Part shown: positions 522-8,943 of the stretch, piece by piece
How the letters are laid out: the number at the start of each line of letters is the position of its first letter
Numbering within the stretch: the stretch's first letter is position 1
NCBI GenBank assembly: GCA_023421735.1
Contig: JAEZSP010000048.1
Coordinates: 1 to 8,943, forward strand
Origin: Bacillota bacterium
GTDB taxonomy: Bacteria > Bacillota_A > Clostridia > Christensenellales > Aristaeellaceae
Direction of reading: 5' to 3'
Length of the DNA stretch: 8,943 nucleotides
The notes under the pieces: model-generated
Seen by the model: the letters and a program-made list of their open reading frames with translations, nothing else
The model's database searches: none
Told to the model about the DNA's origin: nothing
Position numbers and translations under genes: made by a program

Positions 522-2303
522 TTATTTGTACCAATCCGCCTGTGCCGTCACCATCTCGGCATAATGCCCGCCACGCGCGAGCAATTCCTCATGGCTGCCC
601 TCTTCCTCGATCACGCCGTCATTCATCACCACGATGCGATCGGCGATGCGCGCGGAGCCAATGCGGTGCGTCACGATGATGGCGGTCACTTCTTTTGAAA
701 CCTCCGCAAATTTCCGGTATACCCGCGTTTCCTCGAGTGGATCGATGGCTGCGGTCGGTTCGTCGAGCACAATCACGCCGTGACCGCGGTAAAACCCGCG
801 CGCAAGCGCCACGCGCTGCCATTGCCCGCCGGAAAGATCAACGCCCTCAAATTCGCGCGAGAGCATGGTGTCGTTCCCGTCCGGGAAACTCGCGTCCGTC
901 GGCGCAAGGTCGGCCCGCGCGAGCGAAGATTCGATCTCTTCCGTCGAATCGGGCGAACTCACCTGCACGTTGTCCTGAAGCGTCATCCGGTAGCGCATGT
1001 ACTTCTGAAACGCAGCGGACGTATGCAAAAACAGGCTCTTTGGATGAACGTCCCGCATGTCGTGCCCGTCGACGGTCGATTTTCCTTCTGTCGGCAGATA
1101 AAGCCCCGTCAAAAGACGCACGAGCGTCGTCTTGCCCGCCCCGTTTTCGCCCACCACCGCCAACGACTCCCCGGGCCGCACCGTCAGATTGACGCCCCGC
1201 ACAGCCTCCTTCTCGGCGCCGGGATACCGGAAATGCGCGTTTTCGAGCCGAATCTCCGGCCGCGCGGATAGATCGACAGCCGCACCCGTGCGCTCCGGCG
1301 CGTAGAGAAAGTCCACAAAGTTCTTCACCGTACCGACCTGCTTCGCCATCCCGCCAATGTGCCGACAGATCACCTCTTCCATAATGCCAAACATCACGCC
1401 GACTTCCGCAAACACCGACGCGAACACGCCGATTGAAATCTCGTCCGCCATGAGCGCCGAAAAGAGCAGATACAGAATGCCCATGTAGCCCATGAGCGTG
1501 ATCAGCTTCATGAAAAGTTCCCAGCGCGCGGTCTTCTTCTCCGCCTTGCCAGAAAGACCGCTGAAGTCCGCAAGCGACCCGGTGAACAGCTTTCTCAAAA
1601 ACCGATAGTTTCCCAGAAGCCGCGTCTCCTTGAATGAATCGCGGTCGGCAATCGACTTCTCAAAATACTCGTATTTGCGTCTGACCGACCCCAACTTTTC
1701 CTCGAGGTCCGCAAACACCTTCGTGCGGATAAACTGCGTAATCGCCACGGGAATGAACACCAGCGGGATCGCCAGCGCAAGGATCGGTTTTCTGGAGTAC
1801 AGGTAGATCGTCAGGACGACAAAATACGGCAGATAAAACGTGAAAAGACCAATGGGGGTAAAGATCGCCATCGCGCTGTTCTCCGCGCCCTCCTGCGCCT
1901 TGTTGACGCCGTCGAGCATCTTCGGATCTTCAAACAGTACTGCGTTCACGCGCCCGGCCTTCCTGGCGAGCAGCGCCTTCATTCGCGCCGCAAATCGCTC
2001 AAACCAGCGCATGATCAGGAAATTCGATAGCCCGTTCAACCCCTGCTGCGCCGTGGTCACAAACCCATAGATGACGAGCATCCAGACCGCAAATCCGATC
2101 GTCCCGTTCCCCGTCGCCGCACCCGTCACGGCATCGAAAAACCATTGCCGCGCAAACACGGACATGCCCCAACTCACGCTGTGCAAAATGGACAGCATGT
2201 TGTTCATCAGAAAATACCCGCGCTCATATTGAAAAGCCAGCGGCATGAGCTTCGCCAATAGCCCGAATAGCGAGGTCTTCTTCGTCACGGCTGTCTCGCT
2301 CAT
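522..2303 (-). CDS. ABC exporter half-transporter, second of a pair
   Basis: A 593-residue fused permease/ATPase of the type IV exporter architecture (about six membrane segments, then a nucleotide-binding domain). Hydrophobic segments lie near residues 30-55, 68-90, 145-168, 172-192, 265-285 and 290-310. The ATPase domain has the A-loop aromatic in HFRYPG (Tyr360), Walker A GENGAGKTT (385-393), Q-loop Gln433, signature LSGGQ (490-494), Walker B VIVLDE with catalytic Glu515, D-loop AAIDP and switch His546. All key residues are intact, so this half should hydrolyse ATP. The start codon overlaps the stop of the upstream ABC gene (ATGA), with AAAGGAG upstream inside the end of that gene, indicating translational coupling. 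Equal length and tandem arrangement suggest a heterodimer with the upstream protein. The substrate cannot be told; peptides, lipids or drugs are all possible for this class. Confidence 0.95.
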   Translation of the reverse strand: MSETAVTKKTSLFGLLAKLMPLAFQYERGYFLMNNMLSILHSVSWGMSVFARQWFFDAVTGAATGNGTIGFAVWMLVIYGFVTTAQQGLNGLSNFLIMRWFERFAARMKALLARKAGRVNAVLFEDPKMLDGVNKAQEGAENSAMAIFTPIGLFTFYLPYFVVLTIYLYSRKPILALAIPLVFIPVAITQFIRTKVFADLEEKLGSVRRKYEYFEKSIADRDSFKETRLLGNYRFLRKLFTGSLADFSGLSGKAEKKTARWELFMKLITLMGYMGILYLLFSALMADEISIGVFASVFAEVGVMFGIMEEVICRHIGGMAKQVGTVKNFVDFLYAPERTGAAVDLSARPEIRLENAHFRYPGAEKEAVRGVNLTVRPGESLAVVGENGAGKTTLVRLLTGLYLPTEGKSTVDGHDMRDVHPKSLFLHTSAAFQKYMRYRMTLQDNVQVSSPDSTEEIESSLARADLAPTDASFPDGNDTMLSREFEGVDLSGGQWQRVALARGFYRGHGVIVLDEPTAAIDPLEETRVYRKFAEVSKEVTAIIVTHRIGSARIADRIVVMNDGVIEEEGSHEELLARGGHYAEMVTAQADWYK

Positions 2304-4084
2304 TGATACCAGCTCCTTTGCGCCTCATACATCTCGGCATATAACCCGCCTGCCGCCGCAAGCGCGTCGTGCGAACCGGTTTCGAGCACCTTGCCAGCGC
2401 CCAGCACGTAGATGCGGTCGGCCAGCTTCGTCGATCCCAGCCGGTGGCTGATGAACAGCGTCGTCACGCCCCGCGAGAGCGCCTTGAACTTCTGATAGAT
2501 GTCCGCCTCCGCAATGGGATCGAGCGCGGCGGTCGGCTCGTCGAGGATGCGCACCGGCGCGGGATTCGCAAGCGCGCGCGCGATCGCAACCCGCTGCCAC
2601 TGTCCGCCCGAAAGCTCCTGCCCGTTCTCGTAAAGCCGCCCAAGCGGCGTGTCCGCGCCCTCCTTGAGGTGTGAAATGGTCTCCCCCAGGTTCAGCGCAT
2701 CCGTCACCTCGTCAAACCGCTTCTCCCGATCCGTGTGCCCGAACGCCACGTTGTCGCGCATCGAAATCTGATAGCGCACAAAGTCCTGAAATACGAGCGC
2801 ATACAGGCTCTTCAGTTCCGCCTGTGAAATCGTGCGCAACTCCCGCCCATTCACGAGAATCTCGCCCTCGTATGCGCCGTACAACCCGGTCAAGAGCTTC
2901 GTCACCGTCGTCTTTCCCGCGCCGTTCACGCCCACAAACGCGATGTGCTCCCCCGCCTCAATCCGAAGAGACAGCCCGTCGAGGATCTTGCGCTCCGTGC
3001 CGGGATATGTAAACGTCACGTTCTTCAGTTCCAGCGATTCGAACGCAAGCGGCGGTTCGGCGGGTACGGCGAGCGCGTCCTCCACTTCAGACAACGCCAT
3101 AAATTTTGTCAGATCCTTCATGTACTCGCGCTTTTTCGCAATGGTGTCCGCAATGCCCGTCAAACTCCAGCTCATCGCCTGCACCAATGAAAACGCCGCG
3201 ATCGTCAGCGACATGAACATGCCGGTCGTCATCTCGCCGCGCACCGTGGGAATCAAAAGCGTCAGCGCGATTAAAAGCGAAATCACCCCGAACAGCGACG
3301 CGCCCAGCTTCATCCGGAAAAACCACTTGGCCTGCACCTTGAAGCGCAGCTTGTATGCCCGCTGAAACGCCGCCCGGAATTTCTCCGACAGCCGCTCCAC
3401 ATACCCGAAAAGCGCGCGTTCCTCCGCCGCCTCGCGGCTCAACAGCGTCTCGATCAGGTATTTTTGCAGCCGCTCCTCCCGCTCGGTATCGCGGTTCGCC
3501 TGGTATGTCTCCTTGCCGCCCTTGAGCGCCACCCACATCAGCGGCACGGAAAACGCAACCGTCACAAGGGCCGCCCACCACACCGACGCTAGCAGAAGCC
3601 CCACCACACTTAATACATTCAACGCAAGCTGCACGGCGGCCATGATGCCGCCATAACCCGCAAAGCCCTCCTCTATTTCGGTCTCGGGCTTTTTCGTTAC
3701 GCGGCTGATGAGGTCCCACGTCGCAGGATCCTCGATGTGCCGGTATTCCAGCCGTGCGCACTTCCCGAGCATTTCGGTTCGCAATACTTCCCGCAGCCGC
3801 AGGGTCAGCATCCGGTCGGCGAACTGGTAAAACTGATAGGAGAACCAGTTGACGGCAACGACGACCACGACCCATACGATCGGCAGATCAATCGCCGTGC
3901 GCGCCAAATCGCCCGCGCGAACGGACAGGGCGGTATCGATAAAGTGCGCCGTCGTCAACGCCGTTGCGGAGGGCAAAAGCCCCATCACAATGCTCATCAA
4001 CATGGTGAGCACGCTAAAAAAGGGCGATGCGCGCAGACTCAGGCGAATCAGATCCACAATTTTGTAGGTCCGCTCTTTCAGCAT
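2300..4084 (-). CDS. ABC exporter half-transporter, first of a pair
   Basis: A 594-residue permease/ATPase fusion of the same architecture as its downstream neighbour. Membrane segments lie near residues 22-50, 66-88, 148-188 (two segments), 262-282 and 288-310. The nucleotide-binding domain shows A-loop Tyr360, Walker A GVNGAGKTT (385-393), Q-loop Gln433, signature LSGGQ (491-495), Walker B VRILDE with catalytic Glu516, D-loop AALDP and switch His547. Walker A and Q-loop fall at the same residue numbers in both proteins, and the signature, Walker B and switch His are only one residue apart, which suggests an old duplication with sequence divergence. The ATG is preceded by GGGAGG with 7-base spacing, and a consensus promoter lies just upstream. 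It is the first gene of a three-gene unit. Unlike many heterodimeric exporters of Firmicutes, neither half shows a degenerate Walker B or signature. Substrate unknown. Confidence 0.95.
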   Translation of the reverse strand: MLKERTYKIVDLIRLSLRASPFFSVLTMLMSIVMGLLPSATALTTAHFIDTALSVRAGDLARTAIDLPIVWVVVVVAVNWFSYQFYQFADRMLTLRLREVLRTEMLGKCARLEYRHIEDPATWDLISRVTKKPETEIEEGFAGYGGIMAAVQLALNVLSVVGLLLASVWWAALVTVAFSVPLMWVALKGGKETYQANRDTEREERLQKYLIETLLSREAAEERALFGYVERLSEKFRAAFQRAYKLRFKVQAKWFFRMKLGASLFGVISLLIALTLLIPTVRGEMTTGMFMSLTIAAFSLVQAMSWSLTGIADTIAKKREYMKDLTKFMALSEVEDALAVPAEPPLAFESLELKNVTFTYPGTERKILDGLSLRIEAGEHIAFVGVNGAGKTTVTKLLTGLYGAYEGEILVNGRELRTISQAELKSLYALVFQDFVRYQISMRDNVAFGHTDREKRFDEVTDALNLGETISHLKEGADTPLGRLYENGQELSGGQWQRVAIARALANPAPVRILDEPTAALDPIAEADIYQKFKALSRGVTTLFISHRLGSTKLADRIYVLGAGKVLETGSHDALAAAGGLYAEMYEAQRSWYQ

Positions 4085-4880: not shown

Positions 4881-6246
4881 CCTTTCTGTCGCCAATTGAC
4901 AGGATCAGATTCAAAAATATGCCGAAGATGGCCGCGCCCGCGACGGCGGGAACGCCAAAGCCGAAGAAGTTCAGGGTACCGCCGAAGGTGTAGTTGACGC
5001 CCAGACCGATCACCATAATGCTCGCGATGACCGCGATGTTTTTGGAGGAGAACATGTCGCACTTGCGATCGATCAAAATCGCGATGCCCTGCGCCGCGAT
5101 GGCGCCGAACAGGTAGATCTCGAGGCCGCCGATGACCGCCAGCGGGATGCCGTAGATCACCTGAATGAGGGGCGTAAAGCAGCTCATGATCATTGCCATC
5201 ACCGCGGCAACCATCAGAACCGGGACGCTGAACACGCGGGTAATCGCCATGGTGGAGATGTTTTCTCCGTAGTTGGTGCCAGCAGGTCCGCCAATGACGC
5301 CCGCAACCATGTCGCACAGACCGTCGCCGATGAGGTTCCTGTGGAGCAGGCCAACCATGTCGTACTTCTTGGTCGACTTCTTTTCGCGCGCCACGTCGTT
5401 GACGTAGATGTCAAGCTGGTAGACGTGCGCGGTCGACTCGGGAATGGTCGCAATGGCGATGGGCATGATGGCAAAGATTGCCGCCATGCTCGCCTTCGGG
5501 AAGGAGAACGCGGGAAGCGCAAAGATCGCGCCTTCGCCCAGCTTCCAGGTCGAGGCCGCAAGCGCCTGACCGGGCAGTTCGCGGAAGAAATTGAAGCCGT
5601 CTCCGCCTGCCGCATAGATGATCAATCCCGTCAGACAGCCGACGCCCGCGCCCAGAAGCAGCGGAAGCTGACCCAGGAAGCCTTTCAGATACCGGGAGAA
5701 GAGGACGGTGGAGAAGAATGTCGCGAGCGAGATGATCCAAACGACCTGCGACTGACCTGCTGCCGGCGCCGCGTCCGAAAGCGCGTTGCCCGCGAGCGTC
5801 AAGCCGATGATCATCGCGACCGGACCCGTGACGGCCGGGGGAAGGATCTTTTCGACGATGTCGCGCCCCGCGATCTTCACGAGAAGACCCGCGGCAATCG
5901 ACACGAGACCGGAGGCCACGATGCCGAACTGTGCGATCTGGATGCCTTCGGTGGGCAGAATGCCGCCGATTTTCTCAAATCCCTGCGCGGCCATAAGTCC
6001 GGAGATGGCGGAGAGGTACGCAAAGCTCGATCCGTAGTAGAGCGGGAGCTTTTTGCCCGTAATGAATGTGAAGCAGAGTGTCGCAAGGCCGCTTGCGAAG
6101 ATGGTTGTCGAAACCTGGAACCCGGTGATGAGCGCGACGGTGATGGTCGCGGGGAACATGACGACAACCTGCTGCAAAGCGTACAGCAGCAGTCGCCAAA
6201 TCGGCGGTCTCTCGTCCGGCAGGTATCCAATCTTCTTCTTGTCCAT
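4867..6246 (-). CDS. uraA: Uracil permease (NCS2 family)
   Basis: A 459-residue inner-membrane nucleobase:cation symporter of the NCS2 family, predicted to import uracil. Many hydrophobic segments cover residues 18 to 455. Family landmarks are YYGSSFAYLSA (70-80), the TM8 glutamate in TIPESTAH (Glu270, matching the substrate-binding Glu of E. coli UraA) and the TM10 signature NYGENISTMAITR (325-337), whose Glu328 matches the second uracil-binding glutamate. The TM1 motif usually read as QH is QQ here (Gln25-Gln26), a variant that may be normal for this subgroup. The ATG has AAGGAGG ten bases upstream. It lies 23 bases after pyrR, and both share the PyrR-controlled promoter, which supports uracil as substrate over xanthine or urate. 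Confidence 0.93.
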   Translation of the reverse strand: MDKKKIGYLPDERPPIWRLLLYALQQVVVMFPATITVALITGFQVSTTIFASGLATLCFTFITGKKLPLYYGSSFAYLSAISGLMAAQGFEKIGGILPTEGIQIAQFGIVASGLVSIAAGLLVKIAGRDIVEKILPPAVTGPVAMIIGLTLAGNALSDAAPAAGQSQVVWIISLATFFSTVLFSRYLKGFLGQLPLLLGAGVGCLTGLIIYAAGGDGFNFFRELPGQALAASTWKLGEGAIFALPAFSFPKASMAAIFAIMPIAIATIPESTAHVYQLDIYVNDVAREKKSTKKYDMVGLLHRNLIGDGLCDMVAGVIGGPAGTNYGENISTMAITRVFSVPVLMVAAVMAMIMSCFTPLIQVIYGIPLAVIGGLEIYLFGAIAAQGIAILIDRKCDMFSSKNIAVIASIMVIGLGVNYTFGGTLNFFGFGVPAVAGAAIFGIFLNLILSIGDRKVAKE

Positions 6247-6269
6247 GAATCCCTCTCCTCCTTGAAAGG

Positions 6270-6818
6270 TCAGCTTCTATTTCCCAGCCCCATAAGGCAC
6301 ACGCGCGTTTCACCATCGAACGGGGGCATGCGTACCTCGATGAGCTCGGATTGCGATGTAGGGACGTTCTTGCCCACGTAGTCGGCCCGAATGGGCAATT
6401 CGCGGTGCCCCCGGTCGATCAAAACCGCGAGCCGGATCGCCTTAGGCCGCCCGCACGCGATCACCGCCTCCATGGCGGCGCGCGCCGTGCGCCCGGTAAA
6501 CAGAACATCGTCGACGAGGATGATCACCCGCCCCGTCACGTCGAAGGGCAGTTCGGGCTTGCGCCACACGGGCGCGTCCTCCAAATGCGTCAAATCGTCG
6601 CGGTAAAACTTGATGTCCACGCTCCCGCACGGCACATCCACTTCCTCGATTCGTGCGATGTTGGCGCGAATGATCTCGGCAAGCACCTCGCCCCGCCGTT
6701 TGATTCCGACGATGCAAAGGTCGCCCGTGCCTCTGTTTTTTTCGACAATTTCGTGCGCGATGCGCATCAGCGCCCGGCGCATTGCCATCTCGTCCATGAT
6801 CTCTGCCTTAAACTCCAT
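6270..6818 (-). CDS. pyrR: PyrR, pyrimidine operon attenuator and uracil phosphoribosyltransferase
   Basis: A 182-residue protein of the PyrR family, the usual length. With UMP or UTP bound it binds a hairpin in pyr mRNA leaders and favours transcription termination; it can also convert uracil and PRPP to UMP. The PRPP-binding motif VIILVDDVLFTGRT (98-111) is complete, and VGIKRRGE (37-44) and FYRDDLTHL (71-79) are typical of the family. The ATG is preceded by GAGGTG with correct spacing, just after the attenuator's T-tract. It is the first gene of the pyrR-uraA unit and its own leader carries a PyrR-binding hairpin, so it should be autoregulated. No biosynthetic pyr genes are adjacent in the window. 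Confidence 0.97.
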   Translation of the reverse strand: MEFKAEIMDEMAMRRALMRIAHEIVEKNRGTGDLCIVGIKRRGEVLAEIIRANIARIEEVDVPCGSVDIKFYRDDLTHLEDAPVWRKPELPFDVTGRVIILVDDVLFTGRTARAAMEAVIACGRPKAIRLAVLIDRGHRELPIRADYVGKNVPTSQSELIEVRMPPFDGETRVCLMGLGNRS

Positions 6819-6836
6819 ACGTCACCTCGAGGCATG

Positions 6837-6865
6837 AAAAAAGCCTTGCCGGAATTCGGCAAGGC
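6837..6865 (-). terminator. Attenuator terminator in the pyrR leader
   Basis: On the minus strand a perfect 9-bp stem (GCCTTGCCG with CGGCAAGGC) closes a 5-base loop and is followed directly by TTTTTT. It sits between the PyrR-binding hairpin and the pyrR ribosome binding site, in the standard place for a pyr attenuator. Its left arm can instead pair with the PyrR-binding region (see leader entry). Confidence 0.92.
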
Positions 6866-6897
6866 GCGGACACACGCAACGATCGTGCGACAAACGT

Positions 6898-6918
6898 TTG
6901 CCGGCATCACGGTACCGG
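6898..6918 (-). ncRNA. PyrR-binding hairpin (anti-antiterminator) of the pyr leader
   Basis: On the minus strand the arms CCGGTA and TGCCGG form six pairs around the hexaloop CCGTGA, which fits the PyrR-binding loop consensus CNGNGA. It is flanked by TTTTAAA on the 5' side and CAAACG on the 3' side, also family-like. The sequence CGGCAA (6903-6898), made of the 3' arm plus the next bases, is complementary to TTGCCG (6862-6857) in the terminator's left arm. PyrR binding should therefore keep CGGCAA in the hairpin and permit termination; without PyrR, the 6-bp antiterminator pairing can form. A smaller hairpin (about 6875-6889) lies between the two partners. Confidence 0.9.
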
Positions 6919-6939
6919 TTTAAAACTCTATCGCGTGCT

Positions 6940-6968
6940 AGTTTAGCGCATGATTGCGCATCTGTCAA
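6940..6968 (-). promoter_or_regulatory. Promoter of pyrR-uraA
   Basis: On the minus strand a perfect TTGACA (6968-6963) is followed after 17 bases by TAAACT (6945-6940, 4 of 6 matches). The predicted start near 6933 gives a leader of about 115 bases containing the whole PyrR switch. The -35 box begins only 16 bases past the stop codon of the ClC gene. Confidence 0.85.
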
Positions 6969-6984
6969 GTCATATTTGTGTAAT

Positions 6985-8550
6985 TTATGTGTCAGCCGCG
7001 CTGCATAGCGCGGTGAGCATCCGGCTCGCCTCCTCTGGCACGGCGTTCGATGCGAGAAAAATCAAATAATCCCCGTTTAAAATCCGCGTTTCGGCATTGG
7101 GCACAAACGCCGCCTCCGCGCGGTTGATCTGCGCGATGATCGCACCCGCAGGAAGCACCACGTCACGCAGCCGCTTTCCTGCGATGACGCTTCCGAGCTC
7201 CACCGGGCATTCCACGATCGTTCCACTCTTCCCCTCCTCCGCATCCGCCCGCTTTTCCCCAATCATGCGCTCGAGGAGCACATCGTAAATCGGAGCGGCC
7301 TTCAGAACATCCGCGGTCAAAAGCGCGATAAAGGCCACGATCGCCAGCGGCAAAAAGTGCATGAGCGAGCCCGTCATCTCCGCCACCAGCAACACGCTCG
7401 AAACCGGCGCCTTGATCGCGCCCGCCATCACACCCGCCATGGCGCACACGCAAAATGCCGGGATGTATGCCGCCGGAGCGCCCAAATGTGAAAGCCCCAA
7501 TCCGAAAATCGCTCCCACAAGCGCACCCATCGAGAAGATCGGCATAAAGAGCCCGCCCGGGATGCCGCTGCCAAAGCACAGACACGTGAACGCAAATTTC
7601 ACCGCGAGCAAAACGAGCATCGCCCCGATCCCCGCACCCGCACCCTCCGCCAGCGTCACAAGTCCCTGTCCGCCGCCCAGCACGCCCGGCAACAAAAGGC
7701 CCAGCGGAATCGCGCAAAGTAGAGCTACGGCGGGCCGCGCAAACGCCGGTATTTTTTTGTATAACCCGCCAATTTGCAGCAGGCCGCGGTTCACCGCCCA
7801 TCCGATCAGTCCTGCAATCAGCCCCAAGGGGATCAGCAGCGCGTAATACGGAAGCGGAAGCTGCGCAATGTCGCCGTTGTTGAGAACGGGCTTCAGCCCG
7901 AAAAACACCTTCGAAACAACGTCAGCCGTTAGGGCCGCAGAGGCCGCGGCAATGAACACCTTGGGCGAAAATGACCGATGTACCTGTTCGAGCGCAAACA
8001 CCACGCCCGCAAGGGGCGCATTGAACGCCGTGGAAAGCCCTGCGGCCGCGCCCGCCGAGGTCAGCAGTCGCCGCTCGAGCGCGCCGTCCTTGGTGCTGCC
8101 TTCGATCGCCTGCGCACCCGCCGCGCCAATGGCGATGGATGTGCCGCCCTTTCCAAGCGATACGCCAAAAAACATCGCCCCGAGACCCGCCACAAAGCGC
8201 ACCAGGAGCACCGTATACCAGCGCATCCGCACGCCCAATCGCGCCACGGCCTCAACCTGCGGTATGCCGCTCCCCTTTGCATAGGGTTCAATTATCTCCA
8301 AACGATAGATCAAATAACCCACTGCGCACGCAAACAAAACCCACAGTGGGATGTACGCGGGATGTGCGCCCAAATATCGGTACACCCACAGCGCTTTTTC
8401 CATGCAAAAATCAATCCCACCGCGATAAAGCGCAGCCAGCAGCCCGGCGACAACGCCGACGAGCACCCCCTTATACGCAAGCCGCCACCTGAGGTGCCCC
8501 AAATCCGACAGCGCCTTTCGCGCCCGCGTCATGTCCATGCGCCCCCGCAC
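6985..8550 (-). CDS. ClC-family chloride channel/transporter with TrkA-C-like domain
   Basis: A 521-residue membrane protein of the ClC family, with the ClC core to about residue 420 and a C-terminal TrkA-C/RCK-C-like domain (about 443-500) that usually binds a small ligand. The anion-site motifs GSGIP (93-97) and GGLFMP (332-337) are present. The third motif, normally GREGP, reads GKGGT (133-137), so Gly135 replaces the gating glutamate (E. coli Glu148). FALEQVH (185-191) has Gln189 where exchangers have the internal proton glutamate (Glu203), and Leu396 sits where E. coli has Tyr445. This suggests an uncoupled channel rather than a proton exchanger; alignment was by eye. The given start is GTG at 8550 with no good ribosome binding site; ATG at 8538 (residue 5) or 8532 (residue 7) is equally possible and loses nothing of the domain. 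No gene on the same strand lies close upstream, and no intrinsic terminator follows. Confidence 0.93.
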   Translation of the reverse strand: MRGRMDMTRARKALSDLGHLRWRLAYKGVLVGVVAGLLAALYRGGIDFCMEKALWVYRYLGAHPAYIPLWVLFACAVGYLIYRLEIIEPYAKGSGIPQVEAVARLGVRMRWYTVLLVRFVAGLGAMFFGVSLGKGGTSIAIGAAGAQAIEGSTKDGALERRLLTSAGAAAGLSTAFNAPLAGVVFALEQVHRSFSPKVFIAAASAALTADVVSKVFFGLKPVLNNGDIAQLPLPYYALLIPLGLIAGLIGWAVNRGLLQIGGLYKKIPAFARPAVALLCAIPLGLLLPGVLGGGQGLVTLAEGAGAGIGAMLVLLAVKFAFTCLCFGSGIPGGLFMPIFSMGALVGAIFGLGLSHLGAPAAYIPAFCVCAMAGVMAGAIKAPVSSVLLVAEMTGSLMHFLPLAIVAFIALLTADVLKAAPIYDVLLERMIGEKRADAEEGKSGTIVECPVELGSVIAGKRLRDVVLPAGAIIAQINRAEAAFVPNAETRILNGDYLIFLASNAVPEEASRMLTALCSAADT

Positions 8551-8583: not shown

Positions 8584-8727
8584 CCGGCACGTAAAGAATG
8601 AACTGCAAAAAAGACGTAGATGCCTATCCCATGCCGCCGAAAATCATTAAAATATTGCGCACATGGAGGATATCCGTATTCCATTGCGCGCAGATTCACG
8701 CCGATGTACATGAATATCCCGCCGAGC

Positions 8728-8765
8728 AAGTCCCAAGTCCCAAGTCCCAAGTCCCAAGTCCCAAG
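8728..8765. repeat. Tandem heptamer array, unit AAGTCCC
   Basis: Five perfect head-to-tail copies of AAGTCCC (8728-8762) are followed by a partial AAG, with unique sequence on both sides, so this array is complete in the window. A period of 7 would shift reading frame in each unit, so it is not a coding repeat. It lies 178 bp upstream of the ClC start. Confidence 0.95.
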
Positions 8766-8873: not shown

Positions 8874-8943
8874 CCCCTGATCCCTGATCCCTGATCCCTG
8901 ATCCCTGATCCCTGATCCCTGATCCCTGATCCCTGAACCCTGA
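8874..8943. repeat. Tandem heptamer array, unit TCCCTGA
   Basis: Eight perfect copies of TCCCTGA (8881-8936) are bordered by a variant CCCCTGA on the left (8874-8880) and a variant ACCCTGA on the right (8937-8943), which is the end of the window. The array may continue. Variants at the edges with a uniform interior are typical of arrays that grow and shrink by slippage. It shares the TCCC core with the AAGTCCC array 108 bp away but is a different unit. Confidence 0.95.

Follow-up and report, generated by a model that had tools for sequence, protein, structure and literature searches.

The window analysed here, which is the whole stretch of DNA of 8,943 nucleotides, encodes on its minus strand (6985..8550) a ClC protein with a TrkA_C tail, in which both glutamates involved in proton coupling are replaced and the residues of the anion site are retained. 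That this protein is an exchanger turned uncoupled, in which any movement of Cl- would be passive, we consider an evenly balanced proposition. Below, Gluex and Gluin denote the positions of Glu148 and Glu203 in the E. coli exchanger CLC-ec1 (ClcA).

The frame of the ClC gene contains no internal stop or frameshift. A GTG at 8550 would give 521 codons and a probable ATG at 8536-8538 gives 517. Here, an alignment with four relatives revealed that these begin at Met5 of the window protein, and its database copy (P0002) has 517 amino acids, so that the real numbering is likely Gly131 and Gln185. The residue numbers used in this text follow the 521-residue count of an initial, sequence-only reading of the DNA. 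The Voltage_CLC domain PF00654 spans residues 75-413 (7312..8328, minus strand) with an E-value of 5.6e-80 and 269.5 bits, compared to a curated Pfam cut-off of 24.8. The AlphaFold model (pLDDT 87.3) displays the CLC fold, and the top rows obtained for it with Foldseek and VIA-align are CLC-ec1 entries. By profile cut-off, fold and anion site the protein is thus a member of the CLC superfamily. The score for the ClcA equivalog NF003640 (247.6 bits) is below the 350-bit cut-off; this is uninformative on coupling, since P0003-P0005, which contain both glutamates, fall short as well (280-290 bits).

The residues were mapped by a phmmer alignment to the ClC structures of E. coli and Salmonella (all coordinates on the minus strand). 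LGKGGT pairs gap-free with LGREGPT, and GKGGT (8140..8154) replaces GREGP, which places Gly135 (GGC, 8146-8148) at Gluex. ALEQV pairs with the IIEEM stretch, which places Gln189 (CAG, 7984-7986) at Gluin, next to the retained Glu188 (7987..7989), the equivalent of Glu202. Both replacements had been proposed by eye in the sequence-only reading, together with the statement that GKGGT is not a frame artefact, and they agree with the alignment, the open frame and the codons on this strand. Furthermore, the scan for a substitute gate glutamate came out as that reading had implied: between Glu100 and Glu150 the protein contains no acidic residue, and those private to it in comparison to its relatives (85, 150, 155, 438, 439 and 520) all lie outside the gate motif. 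Of the anion site, Ser94 (8269..8271, in GSGIP) corresponds to Ser107 of the central site, and Phe335 (7546..7548, in GGLFMP), the equivalent of Phe357 in CLC-ec1, is likewise present. The third residue had been misplaced, as Leu396 was said to replace Tyr445. Here, APIYDVLL falls on KPLYSAIL / KPLYSTIL, and the column is occupied by Tyr422 (TAC, 7285-7287). The protein therefore has neither acidic residue of the exchangers, although the one at Gluin is not an absolute criterion, and displays the combination of the ClC-K type, namely a Gluex position without glutamate and a non-acidic Gluin.

Among the relatives this combination was not encountered. The main homologue set comprised the best 120 of 761 matches, P0002 being the protein itself, and a second set obtained with query residues 110-200 (best 120 of 165 matches) added 98 new proteins. 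Glutamate is present at both sites in all 119 non-self homologues of the first set and in all 98 of the second, so that either glutamate is missing in 0 of 217 proteins among the matches listed. The Tyr445 column holds tyrosine in 119/119 and in 95 of the 98, the other three having a gap. A search with residues 114-156 yielded 116 candidates, from which only the window's own protein was recovered at E <= 1. In addition, genomes were searched, of which 27 of 398 from the Caproiciproducens family matched at E <= 1e-60 and 6 of 394 from the order containing this family at E <= 1e-100. This gave 33 distinct ClC loci (26 + 7), several of which repeat listed homologous proteins, after exclusion of the duplicates L006-L008; L005 and L009 match in the TrkA_C part only. 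Gluex is kept in 33/33 of these loci and Gluin in 32/33. The exception is a locus from Salinisphaera (L004), whose ClC at 6001-7284 has glutamate at Gluex and isoleucine at Gluin and in this resembles the exchangers without Gluin described in the literature. As a separate observation, L014, L015 and P0117 contain GGGVP in place of GSGIP and have thus lost the central anion-site serine, next to a GPEGP or GHEGP gate with Gluex kept, and an altered anion preference of these proteins is possible.

A clade sharing Gly135 and Gln189, which the sequence-only reading had suggested looking for, was found neither in the listed matches (of 761 and 165 in total) nor in the 33 genome loci. Among the matches listed, the double loss is that of a lone sequence without a family of such proteins. 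Since search candidates had to share exact five-residue words with the query, a distant protein with an equal loss could have escaped.

For the mechanism, the two glutamates carry different weight. CLC-ec1 with a nonprotonatable Gluex has lost H+ transport and retains uncoupled Cl- movement (PMC3519907), and the H+ signals of E148Q resemble those of control vesicles (PMC7253180), which agrees with the initial statement that loss of the external glutamate uncouples. Loss of Gluin by itself would be no proof of uncoupling, although the change of Glu203 to Gln had been stated to abolish proton transport: E203Q still pumps H+ weakly with a Cl-/H+ ratio of about 75 (PMC7253180), and H+ pumping is also known from several natural CLC transporters in which Gluin is not titratable (PMC3519907, PMC7253180). 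The case for uncoupling therefore rests on Gluex: Gly135 alone predicts it and Gln189 adds little. The natural Gluin-less transporters speak for a rival idea, in which the window protein takes an alternative route to proton coupling or moves some other anion, as do the retained Glu100 and Glu188 and the new acidic residues 150 and 155. Nevertheless, residues 101-149 hold no carboxylate able to replace Gluex, and together with the E148Q result this makes such a route very unlikely.

The proposed uncoupling takes the window protein to be a folded membrane protein of the ClC type whose ancestor was an ordinary Cl-/H+ exchanger of the clostridial ClC-TrkA_C group. Its two proton-carrying carboxylates have been lost, and Ser94, Phe335 and Tyr422 are retained for anion binding. 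If the protein transports, this would leave a proton-independent, passive pathway for Cl- (or anions), with the inner Tyr/Ser constriction as its only possible gate. Passive Cl- would then follow its electrochemical gradient and might act as a charge shunt or in chloride release. Expression, transport and uncoupling of the window protein are all inferred here.

The descent fits such an ancestor. In a tree of 88 rows, calculated by a quick method, the window protein is nested in a clade of ClCs with both glutamates; its neighbours are P0004 and P0005 (SH-aLRT 89 for the trio), and the trio sits in a group of 53 rows with a support of 95. The window protein has the longest terminal branch (1.1 compared to a median of 0.22), and the tree program flags its row for long branches and unusual composition. 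Long branches are more commonly misplaced to the base of a tree than into a clade, and because of this the nested position is not the usual artefact, with the caveat that the sister group itself has a support of only 89 in a tree built quickly. Tail and tree position indicate that the protein is a member of the clostridial ClC-TrkA_C group and that it descends from ordinary proteins of this group bearing both glutamates, which we infer from their residues to be Cl-/H+ exchangers.

The long branch might also point to relaxed constraint with the function being lost, Cl-/H+ exchange no longer being needed and the intact frame being a stage of this process. A core was defined as the 125 columns in which the other 119 listed proteins reach an identity of at least 98%. 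The window protein has 22 changes in this core, and among the 120 the second highest count is 7 and the median 0. L012-L015, which are outside the core-defining set and have mean identities of 0.52-0.58 to it, show 2, 2, 11 and 10 changes, compared to a mean identity of 0.515 for the window protein; a load like its own is otherwise seen in loci at mean identities of 0.33-0.39 (22-38 changes of 108-125 core positions). In the uracil permease encoded nearby, which served as a control, only 5 of 177 core positions are changed, within the range of 0-12 of its 26 relatives. The excess change is thus specific to the ClC gene and to positions fixed in its relatives, and constraint on this gene is clearly relaxed. 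The changes are scattered over the CLC and TrkA_C domains, the gate region 129-143 (4/11 core positions changed, Fisher p 0.10) is not significantly enriched, and five other regions gave p 0.30-1.0. Furthermore, the TrkA_C score is reduced (34.5 bits compared to 47.7-55.1 in three relatives), and the content of Gly, Ala, Arg and Pro is 2.5 SD above the GC3 expectation (z 2.5; 26 loci). That the frame has no stops argues only weakly against decay, since pure neutrality with 91 replacements would predict just 1.9-3.4 of them (0 observed, P 0.03-0.15).

In favor of a change of function, the 22 core replacements are mild, with a mean BLOSUM62 score of 0.45 compared to -0.60 for random ones and only 1 of 5000 trials as high. 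In the variable columns, where its mean identity is 0.418, the protein ranks fourth in divergence among 129, near relatives with 0-2% core change and within the range of the clade. Among 11 near-invariant acidic columns the carboxylate is lost at Gluex and Gluin alone (chance 0.018, post hoc; 0.025, also post hoc, for a looser set of 16 columns with 3 losses), the equivalents of Ser, Phe, Tyr and Glu202 are retained, and the frame has neither stop nor frameshift. Decay is the main rival explanation, though on the unlikely side, and we rank it somewhat behind a passive function that is maintained. The same counts bear on a sequencing or assembly error at the codons of Gly135 and Gln189. The window may be a metagenome record, which would favor such an error. 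Against it stand 22 separate core changes within an open frame, the normal adjoining permease and the recording of the protein on 3 contigs, even if these may not be independent, so that we regard an error as the most improbable of the explanations considered.

The window contains six genes with family matches, all on the minus strand, of which ClC is the first in transcription order. It is followed by PyrR (6818-6270), a uracil permease of the NCS2 family (6246-4867), a GNAT acetyltransferase (4788-4327) and two ABC exporter half-transporters (4084-2300 and 2303-522). The frames of the latter (522-4084) overlap by four bases (2300-2303), and the pair probably forms a heterodimeric exporter. 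Among the 398 genomes of the Caproiciproducens family the best match of the permease has 73% identity, which makes a clostridial source probable. A search at E 1e-8 for the remaining five genes of the window recovered none of them beside the ClC of L001, L003, L010 or L011, the available sequence spanning about 1.5 kb on each side for L010 and L011, and beside the ClC of L002 there are ABC matches alone (33-35%, E 1e-8). At gathering thresholds Rfam matched nothing in the window, and hence the stretch before PyrR (6819-6984) showed no PyrR-binding RNA element. Repeat arrays are present as well. Upstream of the ClC gene lie two heptamer tandem arrays, (CCCTGAT)x9.9 at 8875-8943, which reaches the window edge, and (CAAGTCC)x5.6 at 8727-8765, and there is an octamer array, (CCTTGGCC)x4.4, at the opposite edge (1-35).

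The sequence-only reading had gone further and proposed a genuine bacterial chloride channel under TrkA_C regulation, which would have a role of its own. Both coupling residues are indeed gone, and the TrkA-C-like domain it had noticed is PF02080 (residues 446-502, 7045..7215, minus strand; E 2e-8). Animal CLCs lend this proposal a precedent, as ClC-K lacks the gating glutamate (PMC5362633) and the Gluin position of CLC channels is occupied by valine (PMC3519907). The part of it that concerns the loss of proton coupling is sensible. The term channel is left without specific support, because the stated loss of Tyr445, which would have implied an opened inner gate, is mistaken and Tyr422 is kept; the protein could equally well be a slow passive uniporter. 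For ligand modulation the only basis is the TrkA_C domain, which is present in all 120 listed proteins (best 120 of 761), thus common to ordinary relatives, and scores lower here. In addition, the isolated RCK_C/TrkA_C domain of streptococcal EriC, assayed alone, gave no c-di-AMP signal (PMC5919688). Regulation of ClC proteins by c-di-AMP via RCK_C/TrkA_C is possible but hypothetical. With no clade sharing the trait among the matches listed, a dedicated regulated channel is a doubtful explanation.

How an exchanger becomes a passive conductor is a standing question, for which most arguments have come from mutants made in the laboratory and from animal channels. A natural bacterial protein with the double loss, a retained anion site and ordinary relatives would allow this transition to be studied in a simple system; it is weakened as a case by being represented by one sequence, which shows signs of relaxed constraint. 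Bacterial ClC genes missing at least one glutamate are already in print, since in L. reuteri just two of four ClC genes are said to have both (PMC6909576). A natural bacterial CLC without both glutamates and with measured function was not found in the literature searched. The natural exchangers without a titratable Gluin, the Phillips 2012 homolog and cmCLC, resemble the window protein at this position and pump H+ (PMC3519907, PMC7253180). Streptococcal EriC shares the ClC plus RCK_C/TrkA_C architecture (PMC5919688).

Compared to the clostridial ClC-TrkA_C exchangers, of which the Caproiciproducens ClC P0003 has 57% identity, the window protein is alike in length, CLC domain, TrkA_C tail and anion site. 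It differs in that the relatives read have a glutamate gate, mostly GREGP, and an inner EE, whereas it has GKGGT and EQ. CLC-ec1 (about 27% identity) couples Cl- to H+, and the window protein resembles its uncoupled mutants; with Tyr422 kept, it is nearer to these than to the doubly ungated E148A/Y445A (3det). The natural Gluin-less exchangers keep Gluex. ClC-K has a C terminus with CBS domains and barttin as a partner, and for CBS no Pfam match was found in the window ClC protein. Animal ClC-Ka/Kb have lost Gluex naturally (PMC5362633), as has the window protein, and at Gluin, where it has Gln189, valine is found in CLC channels (PMC3519907); a natural double loss is thus known in animals. 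The similarity of ClC-Ka to the window protein is distant (phmmer E 1.1e-11), and the shared losses are convergent and not a sign of close kinship. Taken as a whole, the picture of a bacterial ClC turned passive by losing exactly both proton carboxylates, with its anion site kept and possibly under TrkA_C control, is tentative and rather unlikely, and it would be the bacterial parallel to ClC-K.
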